Shown here in pieces: positions 9,233-41,594 of a DNA stretch of 64,000 bases. A program made the position numbers and the translations under genes. Each line of letters opens with the position of its first letter. Position 1 is the stretch's first letter. The notes below the pieces were generated by a model. That model ran no database searches, was not told the DNA's origin, and was given only the letters and a program-made list of their open reading frames with translations. The DNA is taken from positions 43,278,017 through 43,342,016 of the forward strand of contig CM028327.1 in the NCBI GenBank assembly GCA_016647705.1, in the 5' to 3' direction. Source of the stretch: Eucommia ulmoides. Taxonomy: Eukaryota; Streptophyta; Magnoliopsida; Garryales; Eucommiaceae.

Positions 9233-9354
9233 TAAAAAACTCTAATTTAATTAATATATATTAATCAATAATTTATTTTTAAAATTTTTATTTTTCAATT
9301 TTATTTTAAATTTAAAAAAAAAAAAAAAGAAGTATTGAAATAGTAGTGAGTGAT

Positions 9355-12171: not shown

Positions 12172-12717
12172 GTACTAAATTTTTTGTATAATTATTATTT
12201 TTTAATTTTTTTTTTTATCTAGGTCTGGAGAAAAAAAAAAAGGTTTTGAAGTACTATTTGGTTAGCATTGCTAAAGCATGGATGAGTAAGTAGTACTTCA
12301 ATGCTAACTAAAGAGTGGTTATGATATGCGTCTATGAGGTGCCTGTCAATGTAACCATCGGGCAAGAACATATATTCTGTATTGTACATAGCATCAATGA
12401 ATCATGCTCTCTTTTGCCACAACTTCAATGCTCTGTCCCCACTAGTGTTTCTTGCATTAGTGCATTTGTTGGTAGGGCTGACAAAACAGATAGTTACACG
12501 ATAGTACGACACGAGACCGACACTAAATTATTGGGTATGAGTTTAGCTTATTGAGTAACGGGTTATTATCGGGTCTGACCTGATAAACACGGTAAGAATC
12601 AAGTCAAGTTATCGGGTTTACCTGATAACCCGATAAGCGACACCAATGACACGATAATGATTTATTAGGTGTTCAGGTTATACAATAACAAAGACCTATT
12701 TTAATGAATTATTTTAA

Positions 12718-12860
12718 GGGGCACTGACTAGCAAGTACTCAAACGCGTAGAAAACTACCGATCAAACCCTCTTATTTTTTCATGTACCGAGCGGTCTTTT
12801 GGCTATTTTTGTGACGAAAATACCCCTGCGTGATGCGCCTCACACTGAACAAGATTGTCG
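12718..12860 (+). repeat. Left terminal inverted repeat of the MULE
   Basis: Begins GGGGCACTGACTAGCAAGTA. Further in it has taccgatcaaaccc and gtgacgaaaatacccct, which pair with the inverted right end. The inner limit is approximate. Confidence 0.7.
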
Positions 12861-15800
12861 CCTCCCTATTTTGCGGATTTAAATTTAGTAAACGATACTA
12901 ATATCCATGCGCACAGTCTGTTTGTTTTTTTATCTCAGATTTCCATATGAAAAAATAGAAAAATTGCAAAACAATTATGTATGTTTGATTCTCTTCCAAA
13001 TGAGATGTTAATCGCATTTTTTTGAGATATTTAACTTGATGTAACTAATGTTACCTGTAACATTCAAAAGGATAAGGGTGAAATTCGTAACATCCGTGTT
13101 ACATTCATGTTATATGTAACATTGTTGATGACGATGTTACATGTAACATCTATTTACACAAATTACATACAACATTCAGTGAAGATTATATTACATGTAA
13201 CATCCATTTTGAAAAATAATTGAGTATGTGTGTCCATGTGACAATATTTACATCCAAGGAGTGGGTTAAGATAATGTTATATATAACATCCTTTTTGAAA
13301 AAAAAAAATGGGAATGTTTGTGTATGTGGAAATGTTGCATGTAACATTTCAATCGTTTGGTTCTATGCGTTGGCAGTTTGTAAGTCTGAAAAATGATGAC
13401 AGTTTTTGGCAGTTTTGTGTCTCTGAGACGCACGCAAACGTTACAAAAAAGCGTCAAACTGGCAAAATAATGGTGTGTACATCAAAAAAGTTTGTGTTAC
13501 ATTTTACATACGCCGCAAAAGAACCTACCAAGTATACATTTCAAAAAAAGAAAAGAAAATGAATATCTAGCTAGGTATGATGTTTAAACCAAAAACAAAG
13601 GAGATTAAAAAGGAAATTGTTCAAATCCACGCACATAAAACTTTGATTTGTCAGTTGTTCTGTGTTTTTTTGGAAGGGGGGGACCAATTAAGTGGGAGGT
13701 GGTTTAACATCTTTAACACAACATATGTCGTCAGTTTTTCTTGTTTGGAAGTCATCCAATGTCCAAGATATGGGTGGATCATTGAGGAATTCATGCACGA
13801 GTGCTGCTTTTTCTCTGCAAAAAACTTTCAATGCCATAATTAACGTTTATTGGTACACTATTGAATATGCTCTTCATGACGTGAATTACAGCGGTACCGC
13901 AATCAACATTGCAGAATATAATTTGTTAAGAGAACTGAGCAAAACCTGGTTATGTTTGGATAATCATAACTAATAGGCAATTAATGAAGTGTACTTACAC
14001 TGATGATCCCTGATCTGGGACATTCTCGGTGTTTGAAATCTTAGCATTCAACAACCGATACTGGCTAGCTTCCTTCGACAATAACTCATCAACACAACGA
14101 ATTTGCATTTGAACATGGAAATATGCTAATGATTAGTCATTCAACATTGCACTAACAAACTTCAAACTATATATTGAAACTTACAAGTCTTTTTGCGTTC
14201 TTGAAAAATCTATCCATATCTCCGGGACATCGGAGGTTGATTGAGTTGTAGTGTGTTCACTAGTGCTGGTAGAGTCCAATGTTTTGTTGATGATGTCATC
14301 CCTACAGTGTTTATTGAAAAATACATGAATCTATAGTTGTCCGAAAATACTTCAATAATTGTTGGGTTTAGTATGTCAGCCAAGACTTTCTTGTCTCCCT
14401 GTGTTATCCACATCTGTATATATTGTAAACATTCAAAAGATTAATAAAACGCAATGTGTGCATGCAATCAAACAAAAATAAAATAAAAAACACCTTAAAA
14501 AAATGTAAAAAATCGTAACACTTTGATTATCCAGCAACAACTATTGATAAAATATGAACGATTCGACAAATCTTGACTAATCCCTTTTAAATCGCTTGCA
14601 ACCTTTGCTTCTTCAAGAGACATCATCGCTATGCATCCATTAATGACCTAAAAAAACGTATAATTAAATAGTCACATAATGTTACATTCATCTGCATAAT
14701 TCTCAAAAAAACACAAAAAGAAACACACAAGTGTACTATAAAAAATGTTACATGTAACATGTATAAATACTTCAAGTCTTTGGATGTTACATGTAACATG
14801 GAAATCGTGAATGTTACATAAAACTATGGATGTTACAAGTAACATTACAAACATGTTACAACAAAAAGTAACTCACGAAATTTGAAAGTTGTGTCTCTCA
14901 CAACAACCCAATCAAATCAAGTACGGATACTTAAGCGAATACCCATTCTGCTCCCCACACAAAAGCTCTGCAATAAAATGAAAGACAAAACAAAGATGAT
15001 GTACATCTCATGTGTGTCGTTCCATACATACTTGACAAAAAATGTAATAAATAACACTTAAACTTACCCACATCCCTCCACCTGCATAATCAACTAAAGT
15101 TTATCACAATCATCCTGTGTAATCATTCTTGCAACAACGCTGTTACATGAATTCTTGAGGTTCATCGCCATTGTGGGTTGACGTGCTTCGCTCATTGCTC
15201 TTAATCACATCATCCGTTCCTTAATTTTCAAGGACTGGTACATCATACTTTTTCTTCAGTCATCGCGGTTTCTTGATAGGAACATCACATTTGTGAACTG
15301 AGTCGTCATTAGTCTTTCGTATTTTGATGTGACTCTTGACATTTTTTACAAGCGATATTGGGGTCTTAGTTTCAGGCTTTGCACATGTATTGCGCCTAGG
15401 TTTTAGTTTTGCTGGGGGTGGCATCCTTGGTGGTGAATTGTGGGCAACAATAACTTATGCTTGCCTAACAATCACATTGTCTCTGTCTTCAAGCTCATGC
15501 TGGTAGAACTCTGTCAATCTAGTAATTTTCTCATTATGTTCCTTCTCTTTCTCTACTGACTATGTTACCGAATGCACAACAGCTTTTTCAAGTTTTTCCA
15601 CCATCCTCTCTTGCTGCGTAACATTGTGAACTTCTGCTTCTACCAACTTCTTGTCTATTTTCTTTTTTCTTCCATCATTCTCTCTACCTCAACCTGCAAT
15701 TCTTTCTTCTTAGCACCCATCCGCTCTAGCTCACCTTCCAGTTGTTGAATCTATTTCGTCATTCTTCTCTTCATTTTCTTGCACTTCTTGTTAAATTTTG

Positions 15801-16312
15801 TGAACCTCCATAAAATTTAACAACCTCCTCATCAAATGGATGTGATATTTACAAATCAAAGGACGACATATCGTCAACAACAAACACCTTCTCTTTCCCC
15901 TTAATCTTACCACTTGAGTTGGAAGAATTGGTCTCCGTGTCGCCATGCACCGGTAGTAAGACATCTACCCTGAACTCCGACACTAACTCTGTCGTTAGCC
16001 TCCAAACAACCTAAACTCATCAGCAAACACATGTAAAATTTTATATAGTGAAATACTGTAATACCACGAAAATTTAGATTCTTAAAAATATTATTTTATA
16101 TAAAAATTTAATATTTTTTTTGGACTGTTTTGCAAATTTGTGGTATAAATAATATTGAATAATTTTTGGGAGTTAAATATTTATTTTAAATTGATTTTAG
16201 AAGTTTTAGGACTATTGTGTCATTTAAAATATACTTTTAAGAGTTTTGAGATATAATTAATATTTTTTTTATTTCAATCGGGATAATTATGTAAAAAATG
16301 AAATAAAAATAA

Positions 16313-16352
<40 letters not shown>

Positions 16353-16658
16353 GTTGAGAATTTTTCTTCCTAAGGAAGAAATCATTCTCAACCACACAAA
16401 CATATATGTGATTATATATATGTCAAAGAGAGAGAGAGACATGTGTAGATCTTAATAAATAATAATGATATTAATAACTATTATTATTCTTCCTGGAGGT
16501 TAAAAAAAAAAAAAAAGGAAGGAAAAAGTAAAAAGAAGAGTTACTGGCTTACTGGATAGCATATCTCGGCTAAGAAAAGTTAAGAGTAAGGAGAAAAGAA
16601 AAGACATATATTAAGAAAAGTTAGAGTGAGAATAAAACATCTTGATTCAGAATCTTTC

Positions 16659-19600
16659 TGTAACGCCCCAACCCGGTTTCCTAGGGCCGAGAACGGTTTC
16701 TCCTATAGAGAAATTCCTAAACCTAAAATCGACTATCTAACTTCCCAATCTACCCAATTTGATAAATTGTATAATAAATGTGAAAATTTTAATTGCCCAT
16801 TTAACGACGGAAAACATTAAATATAATATTCACCAATTTAAAACAATCATCTATTTTAAAAAAATATTCCCAACATTTTATCAACCGAATATATTCACCG
16901 AAATATTTTACAACAACTATAATAATTAATATTACCGTTTTCTCTGATTACATCAATAAATAATAATTACAATTATTACAACTCAAATTTCAAATAATAT
17001 ATTCTCTCTCTTGTTTTCTCCCAGTCGACTCTGCAATCCAAACATTGTGGGGTTGTGAGCCAACGCTCAGTAAAACTCCAACCCCTCTAATACGTGCATT
17101 TTATTAATATATCACATAACACCACAAAAACATGCTCGTCACATAAACACAACGCATAAATCACATTCCCGCTTTGTCCAACATATTTCACATAATTTCG
17201 ACAGATAAAATATTGCAACAATATACTAAATAATTTCCATATACTTTTCAACGAGACAATTAATCACAGTTAAATGCATATATTAATAGTGACATGAATT
17301 CTACATTTCCTAGATTTTCCACCGGCATTGAAATTGAAATTTTAGTTTTTAGTGGGGTGGTTTGTGCAATTTCCTTTTTTTTTTTCTTCCTTCTTCCTTT
17401 TTCTTTTTCTGCTTTCTTTTCCTGTTTTTGTTTGCTGCTTTACTGTTTGCGATCAGCTCGCCGACCGACCCTGTTCCGGTCATGCCACACGCTCACGAAA
17501 ACGGAACATCCAAACGCTGACGCCCACATTCGACCCAAACACGGAGTCACGCACACACTGCCTATACACGCACCCATACACCTACTGCTTTCTCTCTCTC
17601 TCTAACTTTTCAGCGACAACTTCGGCGATCTACACACACACACCGCCAAACGACAACATCACCGGGCCAAATACACACTCTTACGATCACCGCCACCACC
17701 GTCGGCCAAACTCATGCCGCCGCCTGCACCCACACGCCCACAACACACACACACACACACACACACTGTCGCAACAGCACACACACACACTCACAAACAG
17801 AGCATACCCATATACACACCGGTGAATAGAACACCGCCGAAAATCAGACAACACACATATACCCATTTCTTTCTCTCTCTATCTCTCACTTACCGCCGGC
17901 CCAACTACCCAACGACGACACACACACACTCCGACACACAATCTCTCGCCGGAACAGACAGGGAACACACACGCACACCATCAACGGCACACACAGTAAC
18001 ACACACACACACACACACACACTGTCACAAACAAAATAACCGTACAATCGTCGGAAGAACAACGACAATTTCACACACACCTACGCAATGATGATCAGAA
18101 CACACTCATACCGACTGCACCAAAATGGAAACAAAACACACACACACACACACTGTTTACATGCACCGGCGACGAACCGCCGACCGACCTCTCTCTTTCT
18201 TCGCCTTCTCTCTCTCCTCTGTTTTCGGTTCTCCGATTTCCTTCTTTTTGAGAGTTCAGATCACGATCTTTGCATGGGGTATTTATAGGGGTGTTCAAAA
18301 AAACCCGCAAACCGAAAAACCGAACCAAACCGACTAAAAAAAATCGAAAAAAAACCGCCCCTGACAAAAAAACCGCCAGGATCGGTTTGGTTTTGGGGTA
18401 AAACCGCACCCCCGGTTCGGTTGGCGGTTTTCGTATACATGAACCATGGTTTAAACCACGCCGAACCGCAAAACCCCTAAAACAATGTCGTTTTAGGGGT
18501 TTTGTATATATACACAAGCTACAAACAGAGAACCCTAGAGAGTAGCCGCCTCTCCTCCCGATCGCAGCTCTCATTCTCGATCGCAGCTCTCATTCCGCTT
18601 CTCTCCTTCACTTCTCTGCCGATCTCCTTCTACTTCTCTGCCGATCAGAACTCCTTGCTCCAGTTATAGCAGCTCCTCACTCCATTTGTCGTCGTCCTCC
18701 TCTTCCCAGCCGCAAGAACAGATCGCAACCCTAAATCGCAACAGATCACACCATCGCAGCCCTAATCGCACCATGGCAACCCTAATTGCAAGATTCGCAA
18801 CCCTAATCGCTCCGAGAACGCCGCTACTCCATCGTTGCAGATAGTTGGCAATGTTCTGTCGTCGTTGATCTTTGGTCATCCTCCACCGTTGGAGATTGTC
18901 ATCGTCCACCATGGCAGATCCGTAGTAGATCATCGTCGTCCACCATGGAAGATCCGTAGAAGATCGTTGTCATCTGCCTTCACAGGTCTAGCCTTCAAAT
19001 CATTCAGGTAATCTTCAGTCCCAAAGTCATTCATTTTCGTTTCCGTTGGTTAACAGATCTGTTCGTTTTAGTGTTTCGTACGTGGATTTGTTCGTTTTCG
19101 TTTGTTTAGGGTTTCGATTTCGTTGTTGTTTGCGTTGTTGTTGATCTTTAGTTCCAAACCGAAACCGTACCGAAAATCGAAGAAAACCGCATGGTTGATT
19201 TTTCCTCTGTACAGAAACCGAACCGTCAGGGAGCGGTTTCCAACATAAGGAAACCGAGGACCTCGGTTTAGGGAACAAAAAAAACACGAAAACTGCACCG
19301 AACTGAACCGCGAACACCCCTAGGTATTTATACGCATGAATCTAGTGCTTCAATTTCAATCCCTTTTATTGCTACGTCGCCCCTCCCATTCTCGATTTTT
19401 CGATTGTTCTCACGGCACACACACGCACGATATATATATATATTTTATAAAAACTCTTTTTGTCAAAATACTCTTTCCTCCCCTAATTTTCTTGAAATCT
19501 TCTTTTTAGTCCAATCCTCACCTTTAACATTTTCTTAAATTGCAATTCCACCCGAAAAGTTTTAATTCAAAAGTTAAATGCCAATTTTGGATTGAATATT

Positions 19601-19719
19601 TTCTACATTCGCAAATTTGACCCCTAAATTTTTTAAATCAAAATAATTAATAGTGTCATCCACCCCGTTATTTTTGAAATATTTTAAAATACGACTTAAA
19701 TAAAAATCGAGGTCTTACA
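16659..19719 (-). mobile_element. Solo LTR 2, inverted, nested in LTR 1
   Basis: TGTAACGCCCC at the left and GAGGTCTTACA at the right, with a CTTTC duplication (16654-16658 and 19720-19724). Read on the minus strand it starts TGTAAGACCTCGATTTTT, like the other LTRs here. Contains CA-rich microsatellite runs (17640-18170) that create spurious reading frames, and a hAT element (18286-19322). Confidence 0.85.
18286..19322. mobile_element. hAT-type non-autonomous element nested in LTR 2
   Basis: Ends TAGGGGTGTTC and GAACACCCCTA with an exact 8-bp duplication GGTATTTA (18278-18285 and 19323-19330), diagnostic of hAT. Both subterminal regions are rich in AAACCGAACCG repeats. The core (about 18540-18990) is moderately GC-rich with repeats of gcaaccctaatcgc and gtccaccatggc-gatccgtag, and may be captured sequence. 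Confidence 0.9.
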
Positions 19720-22162
19720 CTTTCAGTTTGGATTTTGATTTCAGATTTTAGGTAGAATTTCTAACTCTTTTAATACATGTATTTAATTTTTCTATTATGT
19801 GATTTATATTGTTATTGTTGTGAAATTTTAGCGGTTAAATTTTGATGAAATAATTATGATTATGTGAAAATTATGTCAAGGTGCTTTATTTGTTGTATAA
19901 ATTAAATACACGTATTAGAGAGGTTGGAGTTCTACTGAGCGTTGACTCAAAACTTCATAGTTTTGATTGTAGGGCCTGTGAGAGCGAGACGACAATGGGA
20001 ATTTTAGTTGAATTTCTGTTTAAAATTGTAATAGTTGTATTTATTATTCACCATTGTAAATTCGATTCGATAAATTGATTTATTATAATTTCGATAATTA
20101 TAATTATTGCCGCCGCATTGTAAATTAAAATATTTTTATTAAAACGAATTATGAATTACTTCTCGCCGTCGCATTATAAAAAGTTATACAGTGAAAATTT
20201 CGTCAATCGGGTTAATGTTAATTCTCCAATGGGAGAAACCGCGTGACGACCCTAGAAAACCGGGTCGTCACAAATACACTAAAACAAAAATCCCGATTGT
20301 GTTACATGTAACATTTTTTATCTGTGTTAAAATGTAACACAGGTTGTGTTACATTTAACATTTTTCTTCTGCGTTAAAATGCAATACCAGTGTGTATTAC
20401 ATTTAATATTCTTTTTCTGTACATCAACAAAAAAAAAAAAAAAAAAACACTTGGTATGAAGTTAAATTGTGAAATTTTAATCTAGGCTCGTCCGACATCA
20501 ACGTCGTCATGTCCGGTTTCAAAAAATGAGGAAAAAACATACACACCTGATCTGCAGTTAAATTCTGCAAATTTAATCTAGCGCAGTTGTTGTTAGCTAC
20601 AAGGTTATGATGCAACCAATTACAAAGCTTGACCTCTGATACCCAGATTCGATTGATGACATCAAAAATGAATGAATGGCGTCAGCCCATTTGTAAGTTG
20701 CCATAACGTCTAAATCCTCAACAATGTTCAGGTCTAATACTCGAGCATATTGTCTCTTATTAGTGAAGAAACAAGTTGTTCACAAATGAAGACATAGTAC
20801 TTGACAAAATCCCTCACATTTTCTTCACCGTAGCGGTTGATGGCAGCTCGTAACATGTCCTTCATCTGTACGACACTTACCTTGTTTGTATTCAAACATT
20901 GTCGTGCTAGGAATACACAATATTCCTTCTTTGCGTACCTACTGGGCAGTTGTACTCGACCACATGGCAACCCAAAAATAAGTTGCACGTCGTTGCTTGT
21001 GAACTCCACATACCGTGGCCCTAGTTTGAACACTTTTCTCTCCAGATGATAGCACTAAATGATGTTTGCAATCAGATTGTCGATACGATGAAAGATACCC
21101 TGGCATCCCGATTGTTTATCAATGCTTTCATGGTGTTCTAGAATGGGGTGCGGCGTAAATACAGTATATGTTCATCACGTAGCAGTAAATTGTGGATGAG
21201 TGATGAGAACTGTGACAGGTTACATCGATATTTGATCGGTCCTGTTGGGGTTTGGCTTGTTGTCGCTACCGATACTTTGCTTGTTGACGTTATTGGAACA
21301 TCTAGAACATATCTTCCTGAAGTGGAGCAACAAAAATCAATAGATGCTAAAATGTTTCAATTTTCTAAATATAAAACAAACATAAAAGTAATCATTTTTT
21401 TACCATCCTCATTGTCTAACACGCTTGTCGACGTGTCATGTCCTCCATCAATCGCAGGTACTGTGTCATTTGTACAATGTATATAGGCATTGTTACATTC
21501 AACGCACAAAAATATAATGGTGCTACGTTATATGCATACATATACAAAAAGAAAAGGACTATTAATGCATAAACCCCAATAAAATATTACATTCGTGCAT
21601 TGGTGTTACATTTTCAACATCCAATAATTTATTTGTTTCCCTTGCTACGATAGCAGAAACAAACAAAAATCGTGCTTCAAAAATATAAAAAATTGACACA
21701 CAAAATTAGTTATTTCACTACCCAATGGAGATAATGCATTTAAACATCCGCCAAAAATCAATTTGTACCAATATATATGCTTAGTGACCGGTGTATTATC
21801 ACCGCAACACATCAATCATGATATAGGACGATAAAATATAAAAGTGTGTATGCAATCATCGATCCAAATCATGTCGACGTACTTGTATGGTGAAGTTACC
21901 GTACATATACGGACACTGATATACTAATTTCACAGTATCGTGAATAAAATCACAAAACGGGATATGCAAAAATAGGACTCTATATCACACACAACAAACC
22001 TAAACATTACGACTTCTATCCGTTCAATATATGGTTGCATGACATGAACTACAAGTTCGAACGCTTTAAATAAGAACTATCGTCTGATTTTTACGCCGAA
22101 AAATTTAAGATTGCCATCAAAATTGTATCAAGTTTACCTGTATTGGAAAGGTTGACGGGATC

Positions 22163-22433
22163 TGTGACACTCCGATTTTTACTATACGAATAATTTTAGT
22201 TGTATTTTTCTAGTATTTCAAAATAACGGGGCGGTTGGCGATTTTTATTGGTTGATTTAAAATTTTAGGAGTCAAATTGTCTTTTTCAAAATATGTAAAA
22301 TTGGAATTGGGTTAAATTATGACTTAAGTAAAATGAGGGGGTGTAAGTGTAATTTGAGCCCAAACTTCTCCAAGAAGCTAAAAAAAAAAAAAAAAAAAAA
22401 GATGGGGAGCCGGCCACTTGGGCTCCCCTTGTT

Positions 22434-22480
<47 letters not shown>

Positions 22481-24918
22481 TACACCTATAGATATACACA
22501 CATTTATATATACACATATATACTCATATGCATCCACACACACCCAACCCAATAGAAGAAGCATCCAGAAATAGAGAGAGAGAGGAGAACCGGAAGAGAG
22601 TGAGGATCGGTGGTGTGTCGCCGGCGGCGTGGGTTTATCGTCATGGTTCGCCGGTGGTGATTCGTTACGGTTTCGGTGTGTGTATGTGATCATTTTTCGT
22701 TTGTCGGTTTTGTCGTTGGTGGGTTGTGTGGGTTGCCGTCGTCGCCGGAATGGAGTGTAGAGAGAGAGAGATCGGTTTTGGTTCAGCTCGGTCGGCGGTG
22801 TCGTTCGTCCGATGGGGTGTGTGTGTGTATTGGGTAACTCGGTGTGTGTTCGTTCAGTCGTCAGTTGTTGGGGGTGTCGCCGTCAGTTAGTTTAGTTTGG
22901 CTGGTGGCGAGTGGGAATTAGAGAGAGAGCACTTGTCGTCGGTGGCGATGGTGTCGTGTTCTTCGTGTGTGTGTGTGCGCTGCCGTGTATGTGTGTGTAT
23001 GGTGGGTTCCGTCCTTAGTCCGACGGTGGTGGCGGTGGGTGGCCCGGCTGCAGCAGGTCCAGAAACAGAAACATACGCAGGAGAAGCGGGAAGAAGAAAG
23101 AAAAAAAAAAAAGGGGGGGGGGGGGGGAAATTCCACAAACCACCCCAACAAAAATAAAAAATCCAATTTTAACACCGACGAAAAAGTCGAAAGAGGTAAA
23201 ATTCCTATTACTTTTAATATATGCATTTAATTGTGTTTAAATTGTCTCATGGGTGATTGTGAAATTAATTTCTAGTACCAAAATGTCGAAATGACGATAA
23301 TAAATATTGAGACCTTTCGCATGAAGGAATTCGATATCGTAAACTGTAACGGAATAATACTCGTTGAATAGTAATATAGAATGCGAGGAATAGGAAATTA
23401 CGAAAATTAGGGCATGTATTTAATGGTTAGGTTATTTTTATATAAAATATTAATTTAGGCCTTGTCACGAATAGGTTCCCGATTTCCAGAGGATCAGTAG
23501 CAAATAGTCGGTGGAACTTTTGAGAACGGATATTCAGGTGAGTGTACCGTCTTCTTGCCAAACTGTTTTTATATATACATATGATGAAATCTGTGTTTAC
23601 TTCCACTATATGATTTCAAAATGATAATGGATCAAACAGGTTTTTGGAGTGAGTTGGTGAAACAAATTTTTAGGGAATTGTATTGGTTTCTGAAAAGAAT
23701 GATATTTAATAATTTTCGTTAGATTTTGGGTGAGTTGGCGGAAATGGATTTTCGTTAAAATATGGTGGTTTTAAAAGAAAGTTGAAAAATGAGTTTTGTT
23801 GAATTTGGTGGTTTTAAAAGAGGATAGAAAATATTTGGTTTTCATAAAAATAGAGAGGGAAAAAATGGTTCTGTTAAAATTAGACGGTTTTCAATCAAAG
23901 TGAAAAATATGATTTTCGAATTTTAAAAGTTGGTGTTGAGAAAAAGATGTGGACGTTGGTGATTTTGACGGTATTGATGAGATGGTGATTTATATTATGG
24001 TCTGTCCGGAGGGTGGTCCGGCAGATGGATATTTATTTGTGATTTGATGATGATATTATTGAGTTGATTATGCTATAGTTTATGATGTCCTGTCCGGAGG
24101 GTGGTCCGGCAGGTGGGGATTCATATTATGGTCTGTCCGGAGGGTGGTCCGGCATATGGATATTTATTATGGTTATTGATATTATGTGGTGATTTATATT
24201 ATTGGCCTCCGGAGACGTCCGGTAGGCGCTGATCTGCGCAGTTAGGTCCGCTAGGAAGGCATATCCTACGGATGGTTACGGTATCGTTACAACTCCCGAT
24301 CGTGAGGTTAAACGATTACTATGGCTAGCCGATGAGTGATGTGGTGGTGTGATATTTGAGATGTGGTGTCTTACTTATATTTTGTGATTTATTATATATA
24401 TAGCGATTGGTCTTATTTTATACTGGATAGGTTTGAATGGAATTTATTTATATCGCTTTATTTTCACTGCTTATATACTAGAGATTTTACCAGCTGTGTG
24501 GTGTTTATATATTTACGCTTGATCCATTTAAATGTTGTATTATTTAGAATGTATTATTATTATGTTAAAAATGGTTTTTTTTCTAAGAAGGCAGTACACT
24601 CGCAGGTGGAATAGTTAGGAGTCGGTCCCCTACTGGTGCTAGATAGAGTCCTACGATGGAGTCGGGTGTAGGTTTTGTGATAAGCTATTTGGGGTGAATC
24701 TGTGAGAGGTTCGTGTTTTTTTTTTTTTTTTTGGTTGTTCCTATATTTGGGAATGAGTATGTTCTCATAGTAGATAAATTGTATATGGATATTTATATTT
24801 TGGTGCCATATAGTTGGTATGTATATTGTCGTCCTGTGTATTGGTTTGGCGTTAAGGTGATGTCGTGTTGTCGTCACGTCGGCCCCGGGATAACGGGTAT
24901 CCGGGACGGGTCGTGACT
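22163..24918 (+). mobile_element. Solo LTR 3
   Basis: Starts TGTGACACTCCGATTTTT, ends GGGTCGTGACT (final A changed to T), flanked by GGATC (22158-22162 and 24919-24923). Holds (TA)n/(CA)n at 22437-22500, GT-rich blocks and a 15-base G run near 23113. Conserved tail motifs gcagtacactcgcaggtgga and aggagtcggtcccctactgg recur in LTRs 4, 5 and 8. No coding capacity. Confidence 0.85.
24002..24155 (+). repeat. Minisatellite in LTR 3
   Basis: Three copies of ctgtccggagggtggtccgg beginning at 24002, 24090 and 24133 with unequal spacers. The block sits shortly before the conserved gctaggaaggcatatcctac segment of the LTR. Confidence 0.85.
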
Positions 24919-24923
24919 GGATC

Positions 24924-25303
24924 GTCGGCAGTGTTGGGGTTCCTAGTCATCATCTTCTTCGTGTAGACACTATTGTGGTCTGATTGAGACAAAAATCGAG
25001 CCGGTTATGGAGAACGGCAATGAAAGGCGACGGGGTTACAGAGCGTTAGGGTTTTTGATCGTTGAGGAAATATGGAAGGTTTTCCTTTCCAAAATGGAAG
25101 AGTGGGTATGGCTTATGCGACGTGATTACCAAAACACATCATTTCAAAAAAACGTTTTTTCCCTGACAAGTTATCAAATGGCAATTTAATTTGGGAAGGA
25201 ATCCTGTGTTACGCCTTTTAGTATGTGACTTGTACAACATGTAACGAGTGTTAATGTTACACATAACATTTAGTAACTACATTCAAGTTACATGTAACAT
25301 TAT
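24924..25303. other. MULE remnant between LTRs 3 and 4
   Basis: Remaining MULE DNA. It carries palindromic gttacatgtaacat motifs at its right edge (25235-25300). It may include the 5' region of the minus-strand Ulp1-like gene; no exon is certain. Confidence 0.5.
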
Positions 25304-25583
25304 TGTAAGACCCCGATCTTTGATATGCGTATAATTTAAATCGTGTTATAAAATATTTTGAAAATATTGGGGTGGATGGTGTAAATTAATTATGTGAATT
25401 TAAATTTTGGGAATCAAATTGCAATTTTTCAAAACATTAAAATGAGAATGGGACTAATTAAACATTTTAACAAAAAAAAAAAAAAGGAGGATTGTGTAAA
25501 TTCTTATATATTATATATATAGTAGATATATATAGATAGAAACGAATGGAGAGGAAGAGGCCACATGTCCGGCTACATGATCT

Positions 25584-25639
<56 letters not shown>

Positions 25640-27320: not shown

Positions 27321-27422
27321 CACCCGTCTGGCTTAGTTCAGCGGAGCGTTGTTTCACCCATCTGGCTTAGTCCAGCGGAGCGTTGTTTCACCCGTCTGGC
27401 ACAGTCCAGCGGAGCGTTGTTA
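27321..27422 (+). repeat. 34-bp minisatellite in LTR 4
   Basis: Three consecutive units starting cacccgtctggcttag at 27321, 27355 and 27389, followed by ccgctaggaaggcatatcct. Same location as the LTR 3 minisatellite but with a different unit. Confidence 0.9.
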
Positions 27423-30665: not shown

Positions 30666-30712
<47 letters not shown>

Positions 30713-30998
30713 TAAAGCTTTTTGTTTAATTACTCTTTCTCCCCCCTAATTCTTCAAATTCTCTTTTTAGTCCAATATCAACTTTTTTAAAAGTTCTAAA
30801 AATTAAAATTTCACCCCTTTTAAGTTTCAATTTAAAAAGTTAAATGCTAATTTTGGATAGAATATTTTTCCTAAATTTTCAATTTAACCCCTAAACTTTT
30901 TAATTTGAATTTTTAATTGACTCAAATTCCCCCGAATTTTTTCCAATTACTCTAAAATACAACTAAAATGACGTACGTGTTACGATTGAGATCTTACA
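28178..30998 (-). mobile_element. Solo LTR 5, inverted, nested in LTR 4
   Basis: TGTCACACCCCACCCC at left, GAGATCTTACA at right, flanked by TGATG (28173-28177 and 30999-31003). Closest in its ends to LTR 8 (GTGTCCGGGGTGGGGTGTGACA on the sense strand). CA-rich tracts (29880-30370) and (TA)n (30672-30708) are included. Confidence 0.85.
28845..29105 (-). repeat. Minisatellite in LTR 5 (about nine degenerate units)
   Basis: Repeated ccacaccccttacggggaga-type units of 20 to 30 bp, each with a small acccctt...gggga dyad. LTR 8 has only two or three such units at the same place (37315-37373). Confidence 0.8.
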
Positions 30999-31031
30999 TG
31001 ATGGGTGTCCGGGACAGGTCGTGACAATTAT

Positions 31032-31313
31032 CTTGTATGAAAAAATGGTGTAGTTATATTTAGTAACTACACCAAAATTACAGGTACCTATCATTGAAAA
31101 TGGAGAATGTTACATTAACAAAATCATGTAAAATTGAAAAAGATGTTCAAAATGACAAATCTTGAATCCCTATAAACATCACATTATTGCCGTGTTGAAA
31201 AGTAACATCAATGACATCATAAAAAAAATTACAAATGTTGAATGTAACAAAACATTTATTATTCCCTTGTTGAATGTAATGTTAATCACTTCATCTAAAA
31301 AATCCGTTTTTAT

Positions 31314-31349
<36 letters not shown>

Positions 31350-31441
31350 GAAATTCAATTGTCTACACTTGAATCCAAAAAGAATCTCATCGATATAACC
31401 ATGTCTTACACCATCGGCTCTTTGCATGTCTTCCTATTTTG
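31032..31441. other. MULE remnant between LTRs 4 and 6
   Basis: AT-rich MULE DNA with gttac/gtaac motifs and a (TA)n tract at 31318-31347. No recognisable exon. Confidence 0.5.
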
Positions 31442-32110
31442 TGTAAAGCCTAGTCCTTGCGCATTCATACTTTTAGTTGTATTTTAGAACATTTAGAAAA
31501 TAACGGGGCGCATTGTGTTATTTAATATTTACTTTAAAAAAATTTGGATGTCAATTATCATTTTTAAAATATTAATTTTAAATTTTGGGTTTAAATGATA
31601 TCTTAAAGATAATTGTGGGGGATTAATATAGTTTGATTAAAAAAATATCTAATTCATTTGAATTAGGATAAAGATAAAAAAAAAAAAAAAAAAGTAAGGC
31701 GGTGATCAATTTGATCTCACATATATATCAATATATTTTACACATATACACGTGTATGTGTGTTAACCGAAAAGAAGAAGAAAAAGAAAAAAAAAAAAAA
31801 AAAAAGGCTCTCAGCCAGAAAAGGGAAAGAACAGGAACAGGTAATTTGTATTTTTTCTCTTCTTCCTTTCTTCATTCATATATATCACGTTCAATTTATG
31901 TAACTATCAATACAGATATATATACATGTATATTTATATGTTAAATAGGTTCGATTAATATAGTGGGTTCGAAAAATGTAACAGGTGTATTTGTATACAC
32001 ATATATATCTAATTTGCAAAGAATACAATTTAAGATAAAATTTGAAAATTTTACTAAAACGACAATTTTTAGTATTTCGCTGACTAATAAATTTTTTAAT
32101 GGTTAATTAA

Positions 32111-33851
32111 TGTTGATCCTAAGATTTTGATGAACAATTAAATGTTGATGTTTTTGGTAGAACTAACGATTTTATTGTGTTTCAGTTTATTAGTCCTAGT
32201 AATGAAAATGATCATGAAGATATTGTGACAATGTTAAAGATGATGATAAAGATGATGGAAGATTAAGAGTTTGAAGAAATTGAAGAACCTAGGAAAAATA
32301 ACTCAGGTTAAATTTTAACTCTTAATATATCTCGGTTAAAATCACACACGACACAAAATATTTTTCAAAATTATGTGTGTTTTTAAAGGATCCTAACTAG
32401 TTAAATTATTTGCTCATATGTGTAATTGAAAAAGAAATAAAGATAATTGATTAAAATTAAATTTCAGATTTAGTGGAGCTAACCGAGAAAAGAAATCAGT
32501 TAAATGAGCGAAAATGTCAAAAAAAATTAATGAAAATGAATTAAGGAGATGTGTTCCAGAAATGGTCGGTCGACAAGTAAGTCGACCTATGGTTATAAGG
32601 TGAACTCTTTGGATCATTCGGTAGATAGGTAAGTTGACCAATGTTTAGATGATGAACTCTATGAATCGGTCGGTCGACAGGTAGGTCGACTTATGGTCAA
32701 AAAAAGAAGTTTCTGAATTTTTCGGTCGACAGGTAAGTCAACCTGTGAAACATCCTGAATCGTCCGGTCGACAAATGAAGTGTGGGCGATCGACCGATGG
32801 GCGAAGGATTTTTGGTTTGGCTATGTCTTGAATTAGGCGGTCGACTGATGGGTCTTGGCCGGTCAACAGATGGATCAGTTTCAGGATTTATGGAATTTCG
32901 GATTTTATTTAAACAATAGCCATTACTAGCCGTTTATGGTTAAGATGTGAGATATCTTAGGGATCTGATATATTTTGAGTTATTTAATGAATATTTAAGT
33001 ATCCCTATAAATATGGTTCAAATAGTTTTGATATTTCTCAATTTGGTACATGTAATTTTTTATATCTTATCTATTTAAGATTGAGTAAAAGTTTGAGAGA
33101 TTTAATTGAATATTTTAAGAGATATTTTAAGTGAATTATATCAGGAATGAATCATTATGATATTGAGGATTTATTAGTGTAATTAAATGACATGATTTAT
33201 GGGAACTAGTCATTATAGGACTTGTTTCAAGTGGTTTTAAATAGACTTGCGGATTTCATATGTTAATAAATATATAAAATCAAGATAATCTCAATCATTC
33301 TGAGTTATTGAGCTCTCGTGCTTTCTAAGAGTAATCATACTGAGTGCACTGTGAGTTCTTTCTTGAGATTTGTTTTTGAGAAATATTTGTTGTGGATTAT
33401 TGTTTCTACCAATCTAAAGTATCATTGTTATTCTAATCATTATTCTTTTGGTGAAATCCTGGTGAGATCTTTAAAAATTACTTACTCTTGTTTGTTGCTT
33501 GATTCTATTATTTATTATTTGAAATTTGATATTTGAAATTGTTTTTCGGATTTTTTATCGAAAATTATTTTTGAAACAATTTCTTGAGAAAATCTGATTA
33601 TGTGCTTAACTGTTTGCTACCCATCTTTATTTGAAATCAGATTTTGAAATTCTTGCTTTTCTATCACCAGTATCGGGACATTAATTGAGTTTGATAACAT
33701 ATAATCTGTTGTTTGGGTGTACACCTAATCCATCGGTGAAGAGTTAATACTATTATTCTCATGAAAGATTTGATTTTTGAAGTGTTACATTCTAATAATT
33801 TTTAATAATATCCAATTCACCCCCTCTCTTGGGTAGCTCACTAGGCTAACA
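32111..33851 (+). mobile_element. SIRE-like Ty1-copia solo LTR nested in LTR 6
   Basis: Starts TGTTGATCCTAAGATTTTGA, ends CTAGGCTAACA, flanked by an exact ATTAA (32106-32110 and 33852-33856). The end carries ccaattcaccccctctcttg, familiar from plant copia LTRs. At 32565-32860 there is a series of cggtcgacaggtaggtcgac units. No internal domain. Confidence 0.85.
32565..32860 (+). repeat. GGTCGAC-rich degenerate repeats in the SIRE-like LTR
   Basis: At least six variants of ggtcgacaggtaggtcgacc at 32565, 32615, 32668, 32722, 32765 and 32837, spaced about 45 to 70 bp. Each can form a short GTCGAC...GTCGAC dyad. Confidence 0.75.
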
Positions 33852-34287
33852 ATTAATATTTTCTTGCAAATTATATTATTAACGGAAAATTTTTTTGTAG
33901 TCGTTGTTATAGTAATTTCTGTATAGTTAATATTAATTTAAGGAATTAGGCATTACAATAATTTCGTATAATAAAAAAAATTGGGAATGAAAAATAGTGC
34001 ATTTTAGGGTCACGCATTACATATTACCTAATTTCGTTGGTTATTAGGCTCGCAGGCGACGCCGACCAAGTAGTATTCAGGTGATAGAATTTTTGGTAGC
34101 ACAAAAATCGAGGTGAGTGTATTGTCTTCTATGTAAATTGACAAATTATATTTTTTTTTTATAAATTATGAAAATAAAATATTTATTAAAATAAACGGTA
34201 TTATAGCTTATGCGGATCAAGTAAATTTTTAAAGGTGAAAAGTGATTTTTATTATTTCGACTATGTCATAGTTGTCTTCTCGTTAAG

Positions 34288-34430
34288 AGGGCATATCCTG
34301 CGAGATATAGATATATGTTGTTACTTGTCAGGCAAGTCCTGTAGAGTGGATATATATTATTACCTGTCAGACAAATCCTGCAAGGTAGATATATGTTGAG
34401 ACCTGTCAAGAGTGCAAATCTTGCAAGTGG
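34288..34430 (+). repeat. Degenerate minisatellite in LTR 6
   Basis: Three units of about 53 bp with aatcctgcaaggtagatata / acctgtcagacaaatcctgc as the common part, again directly after a gcatatcctgcgag segment. Confidence 0.7.
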
Positions 34431-34938
34431 CTACCTCTACCATTGGGGATATTGAATGGTCCTGACATTGACACCACCTTAGATGTCATAGTTGTATAGG
34501 TTATGGTGCCGTCGTAACTCCCGATCGTGAGGTGAAATGATCTTATGGTTAGGAGAAAAATATGTGTGTTGTATTTTATTATATATCCTGATTATCTGAT
34601 TGGTTGGTTTAAAAGTATCATTTTATTGTAATGGCAGCAGTGGAATTTTATTCTGACTGGGTGTACGGTTATATTTATATCATGTTTGAAAAGTGGTATT
34701 TGACAAATACACTTTATCTATAAATTATTTTTATATTATGAAGATAATACACTAATAAAATATTTAGTTTCAGGTGCCACAATTAGGAACGAGTCCACTA
34801 CTGGTACTAGGTAGAGTCAGGAGGTGGGTCGTTTCGGAGGTTTGGCTGGACAAGTGTGAACCGTGTAAGATTCAGTTTTTTTGTGGTTTTATTGTGAATA
34901 TTTGGGACACGTGTACTCCCAAATTTTGAAGTGGGTAA

Positions 34939-34982
<44 letters not shown>

Positions 34983-35354
34983 ACTTATTTATTGATTGGT
35001 CAGGTAACGTCAAGTTCACGTCACGCCCGACCTCGGGCGATGGGGGGCCGAGGAGGGGTGTGACATTGTGATTCCTAATTTTTCTACATCTCCCAGACTA
35101 TCTCTCTTTTATCTCACCCCTTGACAGTATTCTTACTTTCTTCGGCCAACTCGATTGCTTTTTTGACAATGGTGGTAATATAATTGCTTCACTCTCAACC
35201 CACATAGGTTGTTCCATTGTCAGTATTGCATATATACCTCTCGAATACGTCTCACGGTAAAAATTAACACTGAAGTATTCCTCTATGTATTCATATGCCG
35301 GCAAGCCACTTTTGTTAATCGTTGCACAACCATGTACGTAGAGGAAACCCTTTA

Positions 35355-38025
35355 TGTGAGACTTAAATCGTAGAACGTACGTCATAAATAGTTGCATTTT
35401 AGAGTATTGAGAAATTTCAAGATGAAAATTTTATTGATTAAAACTCAAATCAAAAGTTGGAGGTCACATTGCAAATTTAAAAACATTACTCTCAACTTGG
35501 GATGCAAATTGCCAATTAAAAATCTAAAATTGAAAATGTTAGGGATCAAATTACAATTTTAGAAACTCATATATATTGAATTGAACTAAAAAAGAAGACT
35601 TTAAGAAATTAGATGGGGGAAAAGAGTAATTTAACAAAAAAAAATTAAACACACACACACACACATATATATACATGCATACGCTCGTGCCTGTGAGACT
35701 GCCGGAAGGGAGAGAACGGGAGAGGCAACGTGGCAAGCTAGGACCGATTTCTACCACTTATTTCATGCAATATATATTCACTCGTACATGTGTATTGATA
35801 AAAAAACCTCCATCACATCTGAAATTTGATAAATTCTAGAGAGAGATAGGACCGGAGCAAGGGAGGGGTTATCGAACTTCCTTGAATCGGCGTTCCTCCG
35901 GCAGGGTGGTTGTGGCTGTTACGCATATGAATGATTGTGTGGGTATCTTCGTCAGTTTTAGGAGAGAGCGAAGGTGGTTCGGCCGGTGGGGTGGTTCGTC
36001 GACGGCGTGACTGGTGCGTTCTTAACATCGTCGGTGAGCGGACGTTGGGTTCGGTTGTTCAGTTTGTCGACGATCTTCGATCTGGTGAGTATTTAAGCGT
36101 ATTTATTTGAACATTCTAGTAGGTGTGTTCATGCTTGTGTATGTGATCGGCGGTAGGATCGCCGGTGGGTTTCGGTTTCGTCCGACAGAGTGTATGTGTT
36201 TCTGATTCTTGTTTCGTGTAGCATGTATATGTGTGTGTTGTTTCGACTGCATTCGTGTGTGATCGTCGCCACGGTGCGGTCGACGGTGTGTGTCACCGCT
36301 ACGGCAGTGCATGCGTGTGTGCGTCCTCTGTTTCGGTTCAATACTGTAGAATGTTGGTATATGGAAGTGTTGTTCGGATTGTCGTCCGTCGACCCTCTGC
36401 GATCGTGTGTGTGGGCGTTCTGATTCGGTGTTGTGCATGTGTGTGTGTGTTTTGCTCTGTTCGGCTGGCAACCGTGCGAGTGGGTGGGTGTGCTCAGCGT
36501 CGTCAGCGTATGTGTGTGTGTGTGTGTGTGTGTGTTTCGATCTGTGTGATCAAGTGTAGGGTGGTCGACGGTGAGGGGGAGAAGTAGTGAGAGAGAAAGT
36601 TTTCGGTAGTGTGGGTGTGGTGAACGGCCGGCATTGAGGTTGAGCATGGGGGGTATTGTGTCGGCGGGAACTTCAAACCATCAAACCAGAAAAGAACAAA
36701 AGAAGAAAAAAAGAAAAAAAAAAAGGAAAATTTTCACAGACAACCCCGATAAAAATCAAAAACCCATCTCGCGGCCCGTGAACGATTCGGAATGAGTGAT
36801 GTTTTTCGTTAAGTTTATTTTAATTTATTAAATTAAATTCTAGTATCAAAATTTTGGAACCGGAATAATAAATTTGGGACCGTTTGTATTACTAAATTTT
36901 ATACAGTAATTTTTAATGAAATAAAAATTAACCGAAATAATAATTTTCATAAGTAAAATGTGGGAAATGGAAAATTTTTGGAACTTAGGGTCTGCATTGC
37001 ACGATTTGATTATTTTGCATAAAATATTAATTTAGGCCCTATCATTACTAGATTCGCAAACGCCAACACCCCGATAGGCTTTGGACGGTACTATTTTTGT
37101 AGCACAAGAAATGAGGTGAGTGTATTGTCTTCTTCCCAAACTATTTTTTATATATATATATGATGATATATGTGTTTACTTACATTGTACGATTTCATAA
37201 ATGATATGGATCAAACAGGTTTTGAGATGAGTTGGTAAAATGAATTTCCGGAGAATTGTGTTGGTTTCTAAAAAGAAGGATTAAAAAAAATAATTTTCGT
37301 TGGATATGGGTGGTTTATATTTCTCCCCAAAAGGGGTGTGGATTATATTTCTCCCTAAAAGGGGTGTGGATATTTCATAGGAAGGCATTCCTATAGATGT
37401 TACGGTACCGTTGCAACTCCCGATCGTGAGGTTAAAACGATCACTATGGCTAGCCAGTGTGTGCTGTGGTGGAGTGGTGGTTTGAGATGTGTGTTTGAGA
37501 GGTGGTGTTTTACTTATATTGGGTGATTTATTATTTATTATGGTGATTGGTATGATATTTATACTGGATGGTTTTGAAATGGAACGTATATTATGAAGAT
37601 TTTTACAAGCTATGTGATGTTTATATACTTATGCTTGATTCATATTTAAATATTGTATTATTTAGAATGTATTATTATGTAAAAATATTTTTATTAAGAA
37701 GGCAGTACACTCGCAGGTAAAACAACTAGGAGTCGGTCCCCTACTGGCACTGGGTAGATTCCGGCGATGGTATAGCGATGGAGTATTTTGGGAGGTGTTG
37801 TCTGAGGCGAAACTAGGAGAGGTTCATTGTTGTTTTATCTTTTGTTGTTATTATAATTCAGGGAAGGGTGTGTCCCTACTTAGAGAAGATGTTTATGGCC
37901 TGATTTTGTGGTTGTATAATATTGAATGCATATTGTCGTTTTCTAGTTTGGTTTGTCGCTCAGGTGATGTCGTGTCGATGTTACGCAGGCCCCATGGTGA
38001 TGGGTGTCCGGGGTGGGGTGTGACA
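35355..38025 (+). mobile_element. Solo LTR 8, inserted in the transposase SWIM exon
   Basis: Starts TGTGAGACTTAAATCG, ends GGGGTGTGACA, flanked by an exact CTTTA (35350-35354 and 38026-38030). Removing the LTR and one repeat rejoins the reading frame of the transposase. Contains (GT)n at 36508-36534 and the conserved tail motifs gcagtacactcgcaggta and aggagtcggtcccctactgg. Confidence 0.9.
37315..37373 (+). repeat. Short minisatellite in LTR 8
   Basis: Two units tatatttctcccc-aaaaggggtgtgga, the sense-strand form of the LTR 5 unit, just before the ggaaggcattcctatagatg segment. Confidence 0.8.
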
Positions 38026-40679
38026 CTTTATCTGCCATTATCTACATGAATATGATCGTCCCACTGTATCAATTGGCACTGATGGAGATGAATGAATCTT
38101 GTAAAGTCCATCGCCAGACGAGGTGATGTTCTATGTTATTCCTTCATTAATCAGTTCACACAACTTGTTATCCCAAAACAGTATGATCTTATCATCCATA
38201 CTTTTTGATTCTTCTCTTCTATTGGACATTAAGTCCATCAACCGTATTCTAATTTTGTCAATCAATAATATTACAAGCAAGTGACGATATTCACTTACCG
38301 AAGAATTGAAATATTCCACTATGTTTGATGTCGTTTCACCGTATCGTTTTTTCCGAAAAAAACGTTACTGAATTTCATTGCGGAAAGATCATGCATGAAT
38401 CGTTAAACTTTTTCTCCCCCTTCGTATATTATCTTATCATACAACATTTTGTAGACTTTCGATGTATGCGTATACGCCAACCCTTTCAATTTCTGAATCA
38501 TTAATTCCTTGAGTGCAGTGTTTTTCCCAGCCATTGCAGCCCTTAGATTCATCTTTAAATATAAGAGGTAGTATCTATGGTGACAATGTGAGAATACATT
38601 CCGTACTCCCTCTGATATACCATTGTGCCGATCTGATATAAACGTGATCACAAGATCCGTCGCAACAGTCTTTCTGAACTCAGACAAAAATCAATTCTAA
38701 TTTTCGTCGTTTTTTGTGTCAACAATTGCAAATGCGATAGGGAACATTCCTGCAGAACAAACCAATCACAAAATTCAATCAGTGCACATATGTTACATGT
38801 AACAAACGTTTATGTGTGCATATGCTATGAAAAAAAAATGTTGTACTATACATTAAATATAAAATAAATTTACACAAGTACTTTGGTTGCCATCTTTTGT
38901 CGTTGCAGCTAATAAATTCTCTTTATATCGGCCAGTAAGAAATGTTCCATCAAGGAACACCATTGGTTGACAAAAGCGAAAACTGTAAATACATGCTTGG
39001 AATGCCACGAACATACGTCTGAAATGTCCTGTTTCCTCGTCATAGTCGAGTGTAATATGACTTTCGGGGTTCGTCTGTCTACATTTATCAACATACCACC
39101 GTAATTGGTTGTATTATGCTGAATAATTCCCAAACACCATTGTTTCGGGCCCTTTTAACACCAAGCCACGCGTTGCGATACGAGATCTCAAGATCATATT
39201 ACCTCTTGAAACTGTCAACAACATCAATAGAATACTTTTTCGGGTTTGTCCGTACGTCATCAGTTAAACAACTAGAAATAATCTCCGTACTCATTCATTT
39301 GTTTTTGTTTGTGCAAAAAGCAGACCCACATATGTGTTCGTTTACCAAATTTCGGATGTAGAATATACCATTTTCACGCATCACACGTCCGTGCACGAAC
39401 CATAGGCATTTTTTTTCCTCTCTAAGTGCACACGCAGCTGTCACACGCACTTTGTCGTTTTTTAGGTAACAAAAATTGAACTCAATCTCAATTGCATAAT
39501 TTTTCAATACATCCCGAAATTCGCTGGTTTTGCTTATGAATTTTTTAACCTTCTCTTGGATCCCATTAGCCCACTGGGATGACAATAATACCTTGTCATT
39601 ACTCTGTTGCAATATGTTTCCATAACTACCTATGTAGTCAAGTTCATTTTTGTTGTCTCCACTACTGTTTAACAGGGTAGTAACACTAGTTGATGCACCA
39701 TTCGATCCACTAGAATAATTCAATCTTCTCTCGATGCACATATCCAGCAGCTCAATCTTCATATGCACTATTAGCAACATCATCTACTCAAAATCGTTTT
39801 GGTCAGCAAGCATTGAATTAGGATGATCGTGCAATGCGTATGACAAATCAAATTTTGACTTAGCTAATTCTGGCCATTTGCTTACAATCTTGTTACACAA
39901 ATTGCTAATGTTATTATTGTTTGCAATCCTCAAAACTGTGGTCACCCCCTCATACTTGCACATACATGTAATTGAAAAATACTCCATGCTGACATACCAA
40001 TAAACATCAAGATTATGTTTTTTTATCCCCCACCTAAAAAATAATGATGTTACATGTAACACACCCCACTTTTTCCTGTTAAATGTAACACGCCCTACGA
40101 ATGTAACATTCAAAAATATATACAGTGTGTGTATGTTAAATGTAACATGCACTATGAATGTAACATGCTATAAGTGCAACGTTATGTGCGTTATATGTTG
40201 CATTCCATTTCGCATGTGCTATGTGTATATGTTACATTTCATACTGTGAACTGTGTGAATCAATCTAAATCATCCAAAAATACTACTATATATGTCGATC
40301 TGCATCAAACAATACTATATCATCCATTTGTAAATGCATTTTTGTACACATATGTTCGATAACAAACGCTTCATCAACGTAAAAACGAGATATTTATAAA
40401 CATTACTATCGAAACCCTAACTATGATATCAAGAGGTCTGTAAAATCGTTATGATTGGCACAAATCAATACGAATAGGTGTTACCTGCTATTGCTCGGCT
40501 CAGAATCATACATCAATTGCCTTTCCATAGCTGCTCTGGTTCGATCGTTATCACTACGTGCACCACTATTTCTTGATTTTGAGATTCGAAATGCAACGTA
40601 TATTAGGAAAAATATGCATGATTTCATATTTATAGTATGTTTTTAAGAATGAAATCTCGTTGCGCGTATAATGGAGGGG

Positions 40680-40827
40680 CAAATCGGTCACCGAAAAATG
40701 TACGGATGACGAATTTAGGACTGATCGGTGCATAGGAAAATCGGCGAGGGATTGCTTTGTTCGGTAATTAAGGAGCGAGATTTATTGGTAAATTACTGTT
40801 AAAACTGGGTCTAGCAAGTAATTATCT
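40680..40827 (-). repeat. Right terminal inverted repeat of the MULE
   Basis: Ends ctagcaagtaattatctc. Read on the minus strand it gives ttaccaataaatctcgc and gtgaccgatttgcccct, matching the left end with moderate divergence. Confidence 0.7.
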
Positions 40828-41594
40828 CTTATTTTAAAATAAAAATATACTAATAAATATTTATAAATATCACCTCAAATTTATATAATATTATAATTTA
40901 GTTCATATTATATATATTATGCTCTAACCCTAATTCAATCTCTTTTACTCTTCTCACTCTTCTTCACACGCACACACACATTCTCGGACTCTCAATTCTC
41001 ATCACAGCCACACACACTTCTCACTCACTTTCCAGTCAAACACTACCAACCATCTTTGCCTCCATCAGTCCACTGCAACACCTTTCTAGCCTCAAACCAA
41101 ACACATCCTCCACCTCTTCATCTCTTTCAATCCCAATTCTCATATCTCTCTCACTTCTCTCTCAAAGTGATTGCAACGGCGAGGGGCTGAGGATCTGCAA
41201 TTATCCCATTGTATTTGTGATTTTTTATTTTTATTTTTGTTGTTGTTTTGTTTAGTTTGTTTTTCTTGAAATTGTATAATTTTTTTTATGTTTGTTCTTT
41301 TGTAAGTGGTGTTAAATGTTAATAGGTCTTTAATGTGTAATAAATTATACATGTCTTTATTGTATTGTATTATCGTGTAACACTATAAATTATTTTGTTG
41401 TGTCAATCCGATAAGTTTTGTGTTTAGGTTTTGTGACATGATAAATTATTGTGTCGTATCGATCCGATAAATTTCATATTTAGGTTTTGTGACACCATAG
41501 CTTATTGTATCGTGTTCGTCTTTCATGTTATTGTATCCAGTCAAACTATGACACAACATGAAACACGATATGATGATATGATTTGCCAATCGTA

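Follow-up and report, generated by a model that had tools for sequence, protein, structure and literature searches.

A readable five-level nest of transposable elements in Eucommia ulmoides, with a palindromic motif concentrated in its Mutator-like element

The window analysed here, 64,000 nucleotides of Eucommia ulmoides DNA (GenBank assembly GCA_016647705.1, contig CM028327.1, positions 43,278,017 to 43,342,016 of the forward strand), contains a nest of 11 transposable elements at 12473–41594 whose deepest path, read from element termini and target duplications, runs through five levels. The outermost element is hAT-like and holds a Mutator-like element (MULE), which is itself interrupted by long terminal repeats (LTRs) of retrotransposons, one of these carrying a further hAT-like element at its deepest point. 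With high confidence, the nest is a plant transposon pile-up built by successive insertions, in which the retroelements now survive as solo LTRs. Its elements, and a relative of the outermost one elsewhere in the window, are as follows, with positions counted from the first letter of the window.

12473–41594, no strand assigned: outer hAT-like element, level 1, net 1,002 bp, in pieces 12473–12717 and 40838–41594; identified by alignment to the relative at 60568–61196
12718–40828, minus strand: MULE, level 2, net 9,098 bp; identified by its duplication, Pfam domains and a shared 8-mer
12718–16056, 20278–22162, 24924–25303, 31032–31443, 35071–35354 and 38031–40828: MULE pieces a to f, the remainder after excision
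16057–20272, plus strand: solo LTR1, level 3, net 1,150 bp; TG...CA, duplication AATAC
16659–19719, minus strand: solo LTR2, inverted, level 4, net 2,016 bp; TG...CA, duplication CTTTC
18286–19322, no strand assigned: inner hAT-like element, level 5, 1,037 bp, inside LTR2; 8-bp duplication GGTATTTA, inverted ends
22163–24918, plus strand: solo LTR3, level 3, 2,756 bp; duplication GGATC; homologous to LTR4, LTR5 and LTR7
25304–31026, plus strand: solo LTR4, level 3, net 2,897 bp; duplication ATTAT; join continuous with LTR3 and LTR7
28178–30998, minus strand: solo LTR5, level 4, 2,821 bp, inverted in LTR4; duplication TGATG; aligns to both LTR7 termini
31442 or 31444–35065, plus strand: solo LTR6, level 3, net about 2.3 kb; duplication TTGTG; homology to LTR3, LTR5 and LTR7
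32531–33851, plus strand: SIRE-like solo LTR, level 4, 1,321 bp, in LTR6; TG...CA, duplication ATTAA
35355–38025, plus strand: solo LTR7, level 3, 2,671 bp; TG...CA, duplication CTTTA
38571–38756, minus strand: MULE transposase domain, best stretch; PF10551, 6.9e-8, residues 691–752 of the frame starting at 40826
39355–39528, minus strand: DBD_Tnp_Mut, the MuDR-type transposase DNA-binding domain; PF03108, 2.3e-8, residues 434–491 of the frame starting at 40827
60568–61196: complete hAT-type relative, 629 bp; 8-bp duplication CTTTGAAG, ends TAGGACTGACAAAACAG and CTGTTTTGCCAGCCCTA

Both the anatomy of the nest and the order of its insertions can be read from this arrangement. Target duplications are exact at nine of the 11 elements, and the net lengths (1002 + 9098 + 1150 + 2016 + 1037 + 2756 + 2897 + 2821 + 2296 + 1321 + 2671 = 29,065 bp) together with 57 bp of duplications give 29,122 bp, exactly the whole span. 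Random pairs from the window are identical in 0.19% of draws for 5-mers and 0.008% for 8-mers, although these figures are nominal because element ends and duplications were read jointly. A sequence-only reading of this DNA had described a five-level nested stack, and the termini, the duplications and the exact arithmetic bear it out; the insertion order it proposed follows from the geometry and the target duplications, and its boundaries hold with a single shift, the right end of the MULE lying at 40828 instead of 40827. The MULE of about 9.1 kb that it expected after excision was recovered at 9,098 bp, a length that requires the removal of LTR3 and LTR7, which it had not described. Its observation is thus confirmed and its interpretation supported.

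The outermost level is established by the 629-bp relative. In a comparison of all window pieces with one another, the left piece of the outer hAT-like element matches the relative from base 1 (E 9e-36; 75% over 218 columns), and in pairwise alignments the left piece falls on positions 1–257 of the relative (score 112 versus a maximum of 22 in 60 shuffles) and the right piece on 284–623 (84 versus a maximum of 26.5 in 60 shuffles). When the two flanks are joined, the alignment crosses the MULE site, with gaps near the join. Because both flanks and their join align to the relative, the MULE does lie inside a hAT-type element, the right end of which is uncertain by a few bases, the alignment ending 6 bases early. 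The relative occupies one copy of a segmental duplication, the other copy of which has an empty site, CTTTAAAG, near 53877. This duplication (53598–56664 versus 60244–64000, about 7.3 kb apart) shows 78.5% identity over 2,926 columns and reaches the window end; a ribosomal S10 domain (1.5e-6) is located at 56738–56851, just past its left copy.

At the deepest level, the inner element has inverted ends TAGGGGTGTTC and GAACACCCCTA, and it shares with the 629-bp relative the combination of an 8-bp duplication and short terminal inverted repeats (TIRs) that is used here to recognise hAT-like elements. No hAT transposase domain was detected in its six frames, as expected of a nonautonomous copy. 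It is therefore labelled hAT-like and probably nonautonomous, a designation taken from its ends and duplication only.

The remainder left after excision is identified as a MULE because two transposase domains were found in it, PF10551 and PF03108, both above the Pfam cut-off. These domains occupy separate frames with stops between them, and the presumed transposase pieces flanking LTR7 (35071–35354 and 38031–39900) do not form a single continuous frame, so that the present copy is defective. An open stretch in 35071–35354 resembles, in our view, the end of a transposase, so that the transposase gene may have been the insertion site of LTR7; Pfam searches with E values up to 10 matched nothing in this stretch. 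With the same limit on E, nothing in Pfam matched a second coding-like region at about 20739–21054 on the minus strand, and a scan of IMG/VR with one 162-amino-acid transposase stretch returned no relative. Terminal inverted repeats are long in many MULEs but short or lacking in some, and the ends of this element show only degenerate subterminal inverted similarity (bases 36–121 versus 60–165; score 20, with no more than 16.5 in any of 300 shuffles). Its 9-bp duplication, TTATTTTAA, is exact on both sides and falls within the range of 8–11 bp given for MULEs in the consulted part of PMC6446971, but needs other support because it is AT-rich and the ends were not known in advance; a shared 9-mer occurs at two random points in 1% of draws within ±15 bp and in 13% within ±60 bp. 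Such support comes from the 8-mer ATGTAACA and a palindrome, described below, which concentrate in the scattered pieces and support the view that they are one element.

The sequence characters of the retroelement inserts fit solo LTRs: TG...CA ends, 5-bp duplications and no internal domain, with the exceptions of LTR3, whose terminal base is T and not A (it ends in CT), and of LTR6, whose start is ambiguous. The LTR6 duplication TTGTG is exact with a start at 31444 (TA...), 2 bp inside the homologous TG, and agrees at four of five positions with the TG start at 31442. Thirty frames spanning 16057–20277 and 22163–38030 had no match in Pfam with an E value of 0.1 or below. Several LTR ends are fixed independently of the duplications because homologous LTRs share termini: LTR7 is matched at each of its ends by LTR5, and LTR3, LTR4, LTR5, LTR6 and LTR7 coincide in their 3' parts. 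LTR2 is also recognisable against LTR5, with 74.9% identity over 283 bp. The claim that all retroelements are solo LTRs therefore stands as far as the lack of internal domains is concerned, while recombination between the two LTRs of each element is what we infer to have caused it. We presume that these LTRs are akin to those of Ty3/gypsy chromoviruses of the Tekay/Del type, which they resemble in their length, a TGTRAVACCCC-like start and a GTGACA end, although the present elements differ in having no internal region. The LTR at 32531–33851 is likewise only presumably that of a Sirevirus.

Two further features of these LTRs were observed. LTR3 (23538–24605) and its counterparts in LTR4, LTR5 and LTR7 contain a stretch of 0.6–1.07 kb bounded by AG/GTGAGTGTACTGTCTTCTT and AAGAAGGCAGTACACTCGCAG/ (slashes mark the boundaries), the first boundary being present in five of the seven LTRs and the second in four of the seven; its boundaries give it the appearance of an LTR-borne intron, each end being an inverted repeat of the other. 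The SIRE-like LTR includes a 52-bp tandem array at 32565–32744 (3.5 copies, 72% match) with GTCGGTCGAC.

Excising an insert and aligning the joined flanks with uninterrupted relatives was the check proposed with the original description, and within the window it succeeded for the MULE in the outer hAT-like element and for LTR5 in LTR4, was partial for LTR2 with the inner hAT-like element and for LTR6 with the SIRE-like LTR, and left LTR1 with LTR2 unbridged. Once LTR5 is removed, LTR4 matches LTR3 across the join with no gap (90.1% over 182 bp), and the LTR4 flanks, when tested apart, are adjacent on both LTR3 and LTR7 (2648/2649); the right flank, 23 bp long, scores 18 on LTR3 versus 12.5 for shuffles, but 13 on LTR7 versus 14.5, below shuffles. 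The LTR2 flanks of the inner hAT-like element are neighbouring on LTR5 (1–444 and 440–1037), although the second flank matches LTR5 weakly (z 3.5) and is matched more strongly by LTR3 and LTR4 (z 6.0 and 6.2). Of LTR6, one half aligns to the 5' part and the other to the 3' part of LTR3, LTR5 and LTR7, the right half on LTR7 almost from its first base. These similarities give partial support to the LTR2/inner hAT and LTR6/SIRE-like joins.

The history that this geometry gives starts with the insertion of a nonautonomous hAT-like element of about 1 kb, which was then entered, with a 9-bp duplication, by a MULE of about 9.1 kb coding for a MuDR-type transposase. LTR retrotransposons came next, five of them in the MULE (LTR1, LTR3, LTR4, LTR6 and LTR7), then LTR2 in LTR1, LTR5 in LTR4 and the SIRE-like element in LTR6, and finally a 1-kb hAT-like element in LTR2. 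Recombination between the two LTRs of each retrotransposon presumably later removed one of them together with the internal region, so that a solo LTR and its duplication remained. Age signals add little to this order. Observed/expected CpG ratios are 0.90 for the MULE and 0.91 for the outer hAT-like element, 1.05–1.43 for LTR1 to LTR7 and 1.54 for the 629-bp hAT relative, and the lower ratios of the two oldest hosts relative to LTR1–7 agree with the insertion order, an agreement of little weight. The ratio is an ambiguous guide to age because families begin with different compositions, and solo LTRs are unsuited to divergence dating because no LTR pair remains to compare. Even where pairs exist, about one fourth of nested retrotransposons have LTR divergence above that of their hosts, according to the portion of PMC7251063 drawn on here.

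Several observations weigh against a history of successive insertions, or leave parts of it less secure. The SIRE-like LTR has a CpG ratio of 0.88, below the 1.05 of its host LTR6 though it is necessarily younger, and the ratios of the flanks are lower still (0.75–0.76). The flanks of the outer hAT-like element agree at just five of eight positions (TTTGTTGG and GCTGCTGG), so that its duplication, taken alone, is weak. For the five LTRs inserted in the MULE, the reading depends on duplications, termini and the motif, the window holding no uninterrupted MULE, and three boundaries have some play (the LTR6 start, the last base of LTR3 and the right end of the MULE). Among the in-window LTRs, only the first 310–393 of the 1,089 bases of the left half of LTR6 align, leaving the join around the SIRE-like LTR unbridged. 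Where LTR2 interrupts LTR1, the right side of the join did not score above shuffles on any of four relatives, and the left side did so only marginally (best 53.5 versus a shuffle maximum of 48.5).

Repeat-rich plant regions are generally prone to misassembly, and the region might in part be a chimera in which foreign repeat copies were stitched into the MULE. Such an artefact would not, however, yield exact duplications at nine of 11 insertions or continuous relatives over two joins, and we consider it extremely improbable. Slightly more room, but still very little, is left for the idea that some of the TG...CA elements are short nonautonomous elements that were mobile as such and never had an internal region here. 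All of LTR1 to LTR7 and the SIRE-like LTR do lack an internal region, and some ends are partly inverted (LTR3 starts with TGTGACACTCC; LTR6 and LTR7 end with GGGGTGTGACA or GGGTGTGACA). Against this, 5-bp duplications, TG...CA ends and lengths of 1.2–2.9 kb fit LTRs, and solo LTRs are common, with 1.39 per intact element in rice and 0.13 on wheat chromosome 3B in the relevant part of PMC4290129. Successive insertion followed by reduction to solo LTRs remains the preferred account of the nest.

A nest of this kind is ordinary plant biology, though unusually easy to read. On wheat chromosome 3B, 30,199 nested insertions in up to eight layers are given in the same part of PMC4290129, and those clusters likewise consist of layered insertions with target duplications; the present nest differs in having a DNA transposon as its main host and in that each of its eight retroelements is a solo LTR. 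The locus is a clean illustration of insertion in layers, on which annotation software could be tested.

The part of the nest worth following is a short palindrome in the MULE. At up to one mismatch, TGTTACATGTAACA has 15 sites in the window, all 15 of them in MULE pieces (eight in a, two in b, one in c and four in f). Looser matching erodes this selectivity, with MULE shares of 19 of 22 at two mismatches, 25 of 36 at three (two of the others in inserts and nine outside the nest) and 44 of 97 at four. The 8-mer ATGTAACA has 37 sites in the window, 32 of them within the 9,098 bp of the MULE, versus a mean of 1.5 and a maximum of 6 in 100 runs of a second-order Markov simulation; it occurs in five of the six MULE pieces, in both orientations, and is absent from piece e (284 bp). 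Inside the nest, 32 of its 34 sites lie in MULE pieces, a count reached by none of 1,401 shifts (maximum 31). In piece a, ATGTTACA and ATGTAACA are the first and second most frequent 8-mers, with 14 copies each, and pieces b to f, which make up 9% of the window, hold 18 of the 23 ATGTAACA sites outside piece a, a held-out count reached by none of 1,276 shifted masks (maximum 17), although this test was not blind, the motif having been seen in MULE pieces before the 8-mers of piece a were ranked. None of the 32 ATGTAACA sites lies in the 3,428 bp judged coding, and none of the palindrome sites at up to one mismatch lies in such intervals, which were delimited by eye with the sites already in view. 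The main clusters are the following, none with an assigned strand.

13097–15148: 14 ATGTAACA sites in the left part of the MULE
20297–20420: 47-bp tandem array of 2.6 copies, with several palindrome copies
40048–40237: seven ATGTAACA sites upstream of what is probably the coding part of the transposase

This distribution suggests that the 14–16-bp palindrome is most likely a binding site of the MULE's own protein, either the transposase or an anti-silencing factor of the VANC type. In the parts of PMC5735166 and PMC10398659 used here, the VANC targets of Arabidopsis VANDAL elements are short noncoding motifs, often in tandem. Like VANDAL MULEs, as characterised there and in part of PMC6446971, the present MULE combines a 9-bp duplication, absent or degenerate TIRs and a second coding-like region with short motifs that concentrate in noncoding DNA (coding being judged by eye) and are partly tandem. 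The same part of PMC6446971 lists TIRs of 46–174 bp in some VANDAL relatives. The palindrome is unlike the VANDAL targets given in these excerpts, which are YAGTATTAY or AGTTGTCC/AGTTGTAC, and no VANC-like domain was detected in Pfam searches of the MULE pieces. By analogy, this MULE lineage could tentatively be credited with an anti-silencing or transposase-recognition system of its own, directed at the palindrome ATGTTACATGTAACAT in noncoding DNA, as an independent counterpart of VANC with a symmetric target. VANC target motifs make a transposon's anti-silencing defence legible in its DNA; if a further MULE lineage does have a palindromic target, this would be informative about how easily systems of this kind evolve.

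It is also possible, though we doubt it, that the palindrome arose neutrally, through local tandem duplication and AT-rich composition, and is no binding site. Several copies do lie in a single 47-bp tandem array, the A+T content of the MULE is 65%, and the noncoding intervals were fixed by eye and post hoc, with the site at 15141 ending 2 bases from a boundary. Local duplication fits less well with single recurrences kilobases apart, with an 8-mer spread over most pieces in both orientations, far above its simulated abundance and outside the judged coding DNA, or with a 14-mer that at up to one mismatch recurs in four of the six pieces, including an intron-like gap (38791–38804).

The letters of the motif are present in a 21-nt small RNA, ATTGTTACATGTAACACTGGC, in two tobacco small-RNA papers, a match taken as coincidence or as another element, and RNA spellings of the motif were not found in a literature text search. 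No claim is made that the palindrome is previously unreported. Work by Sasaki et al. in 2022 reportedly concerns, to judge from its title, anti-silencing systems of Mu-like transposons in eudicots.

To the left of the nest, the flank at 1–10040 is gene-bearing. It includes an arginine/serine-rich reading frame at 2029–3219, whose sole Pfam match is below the cut-off, an RRM protein at 264–941 and a DnaJ protein at 9438–10037.

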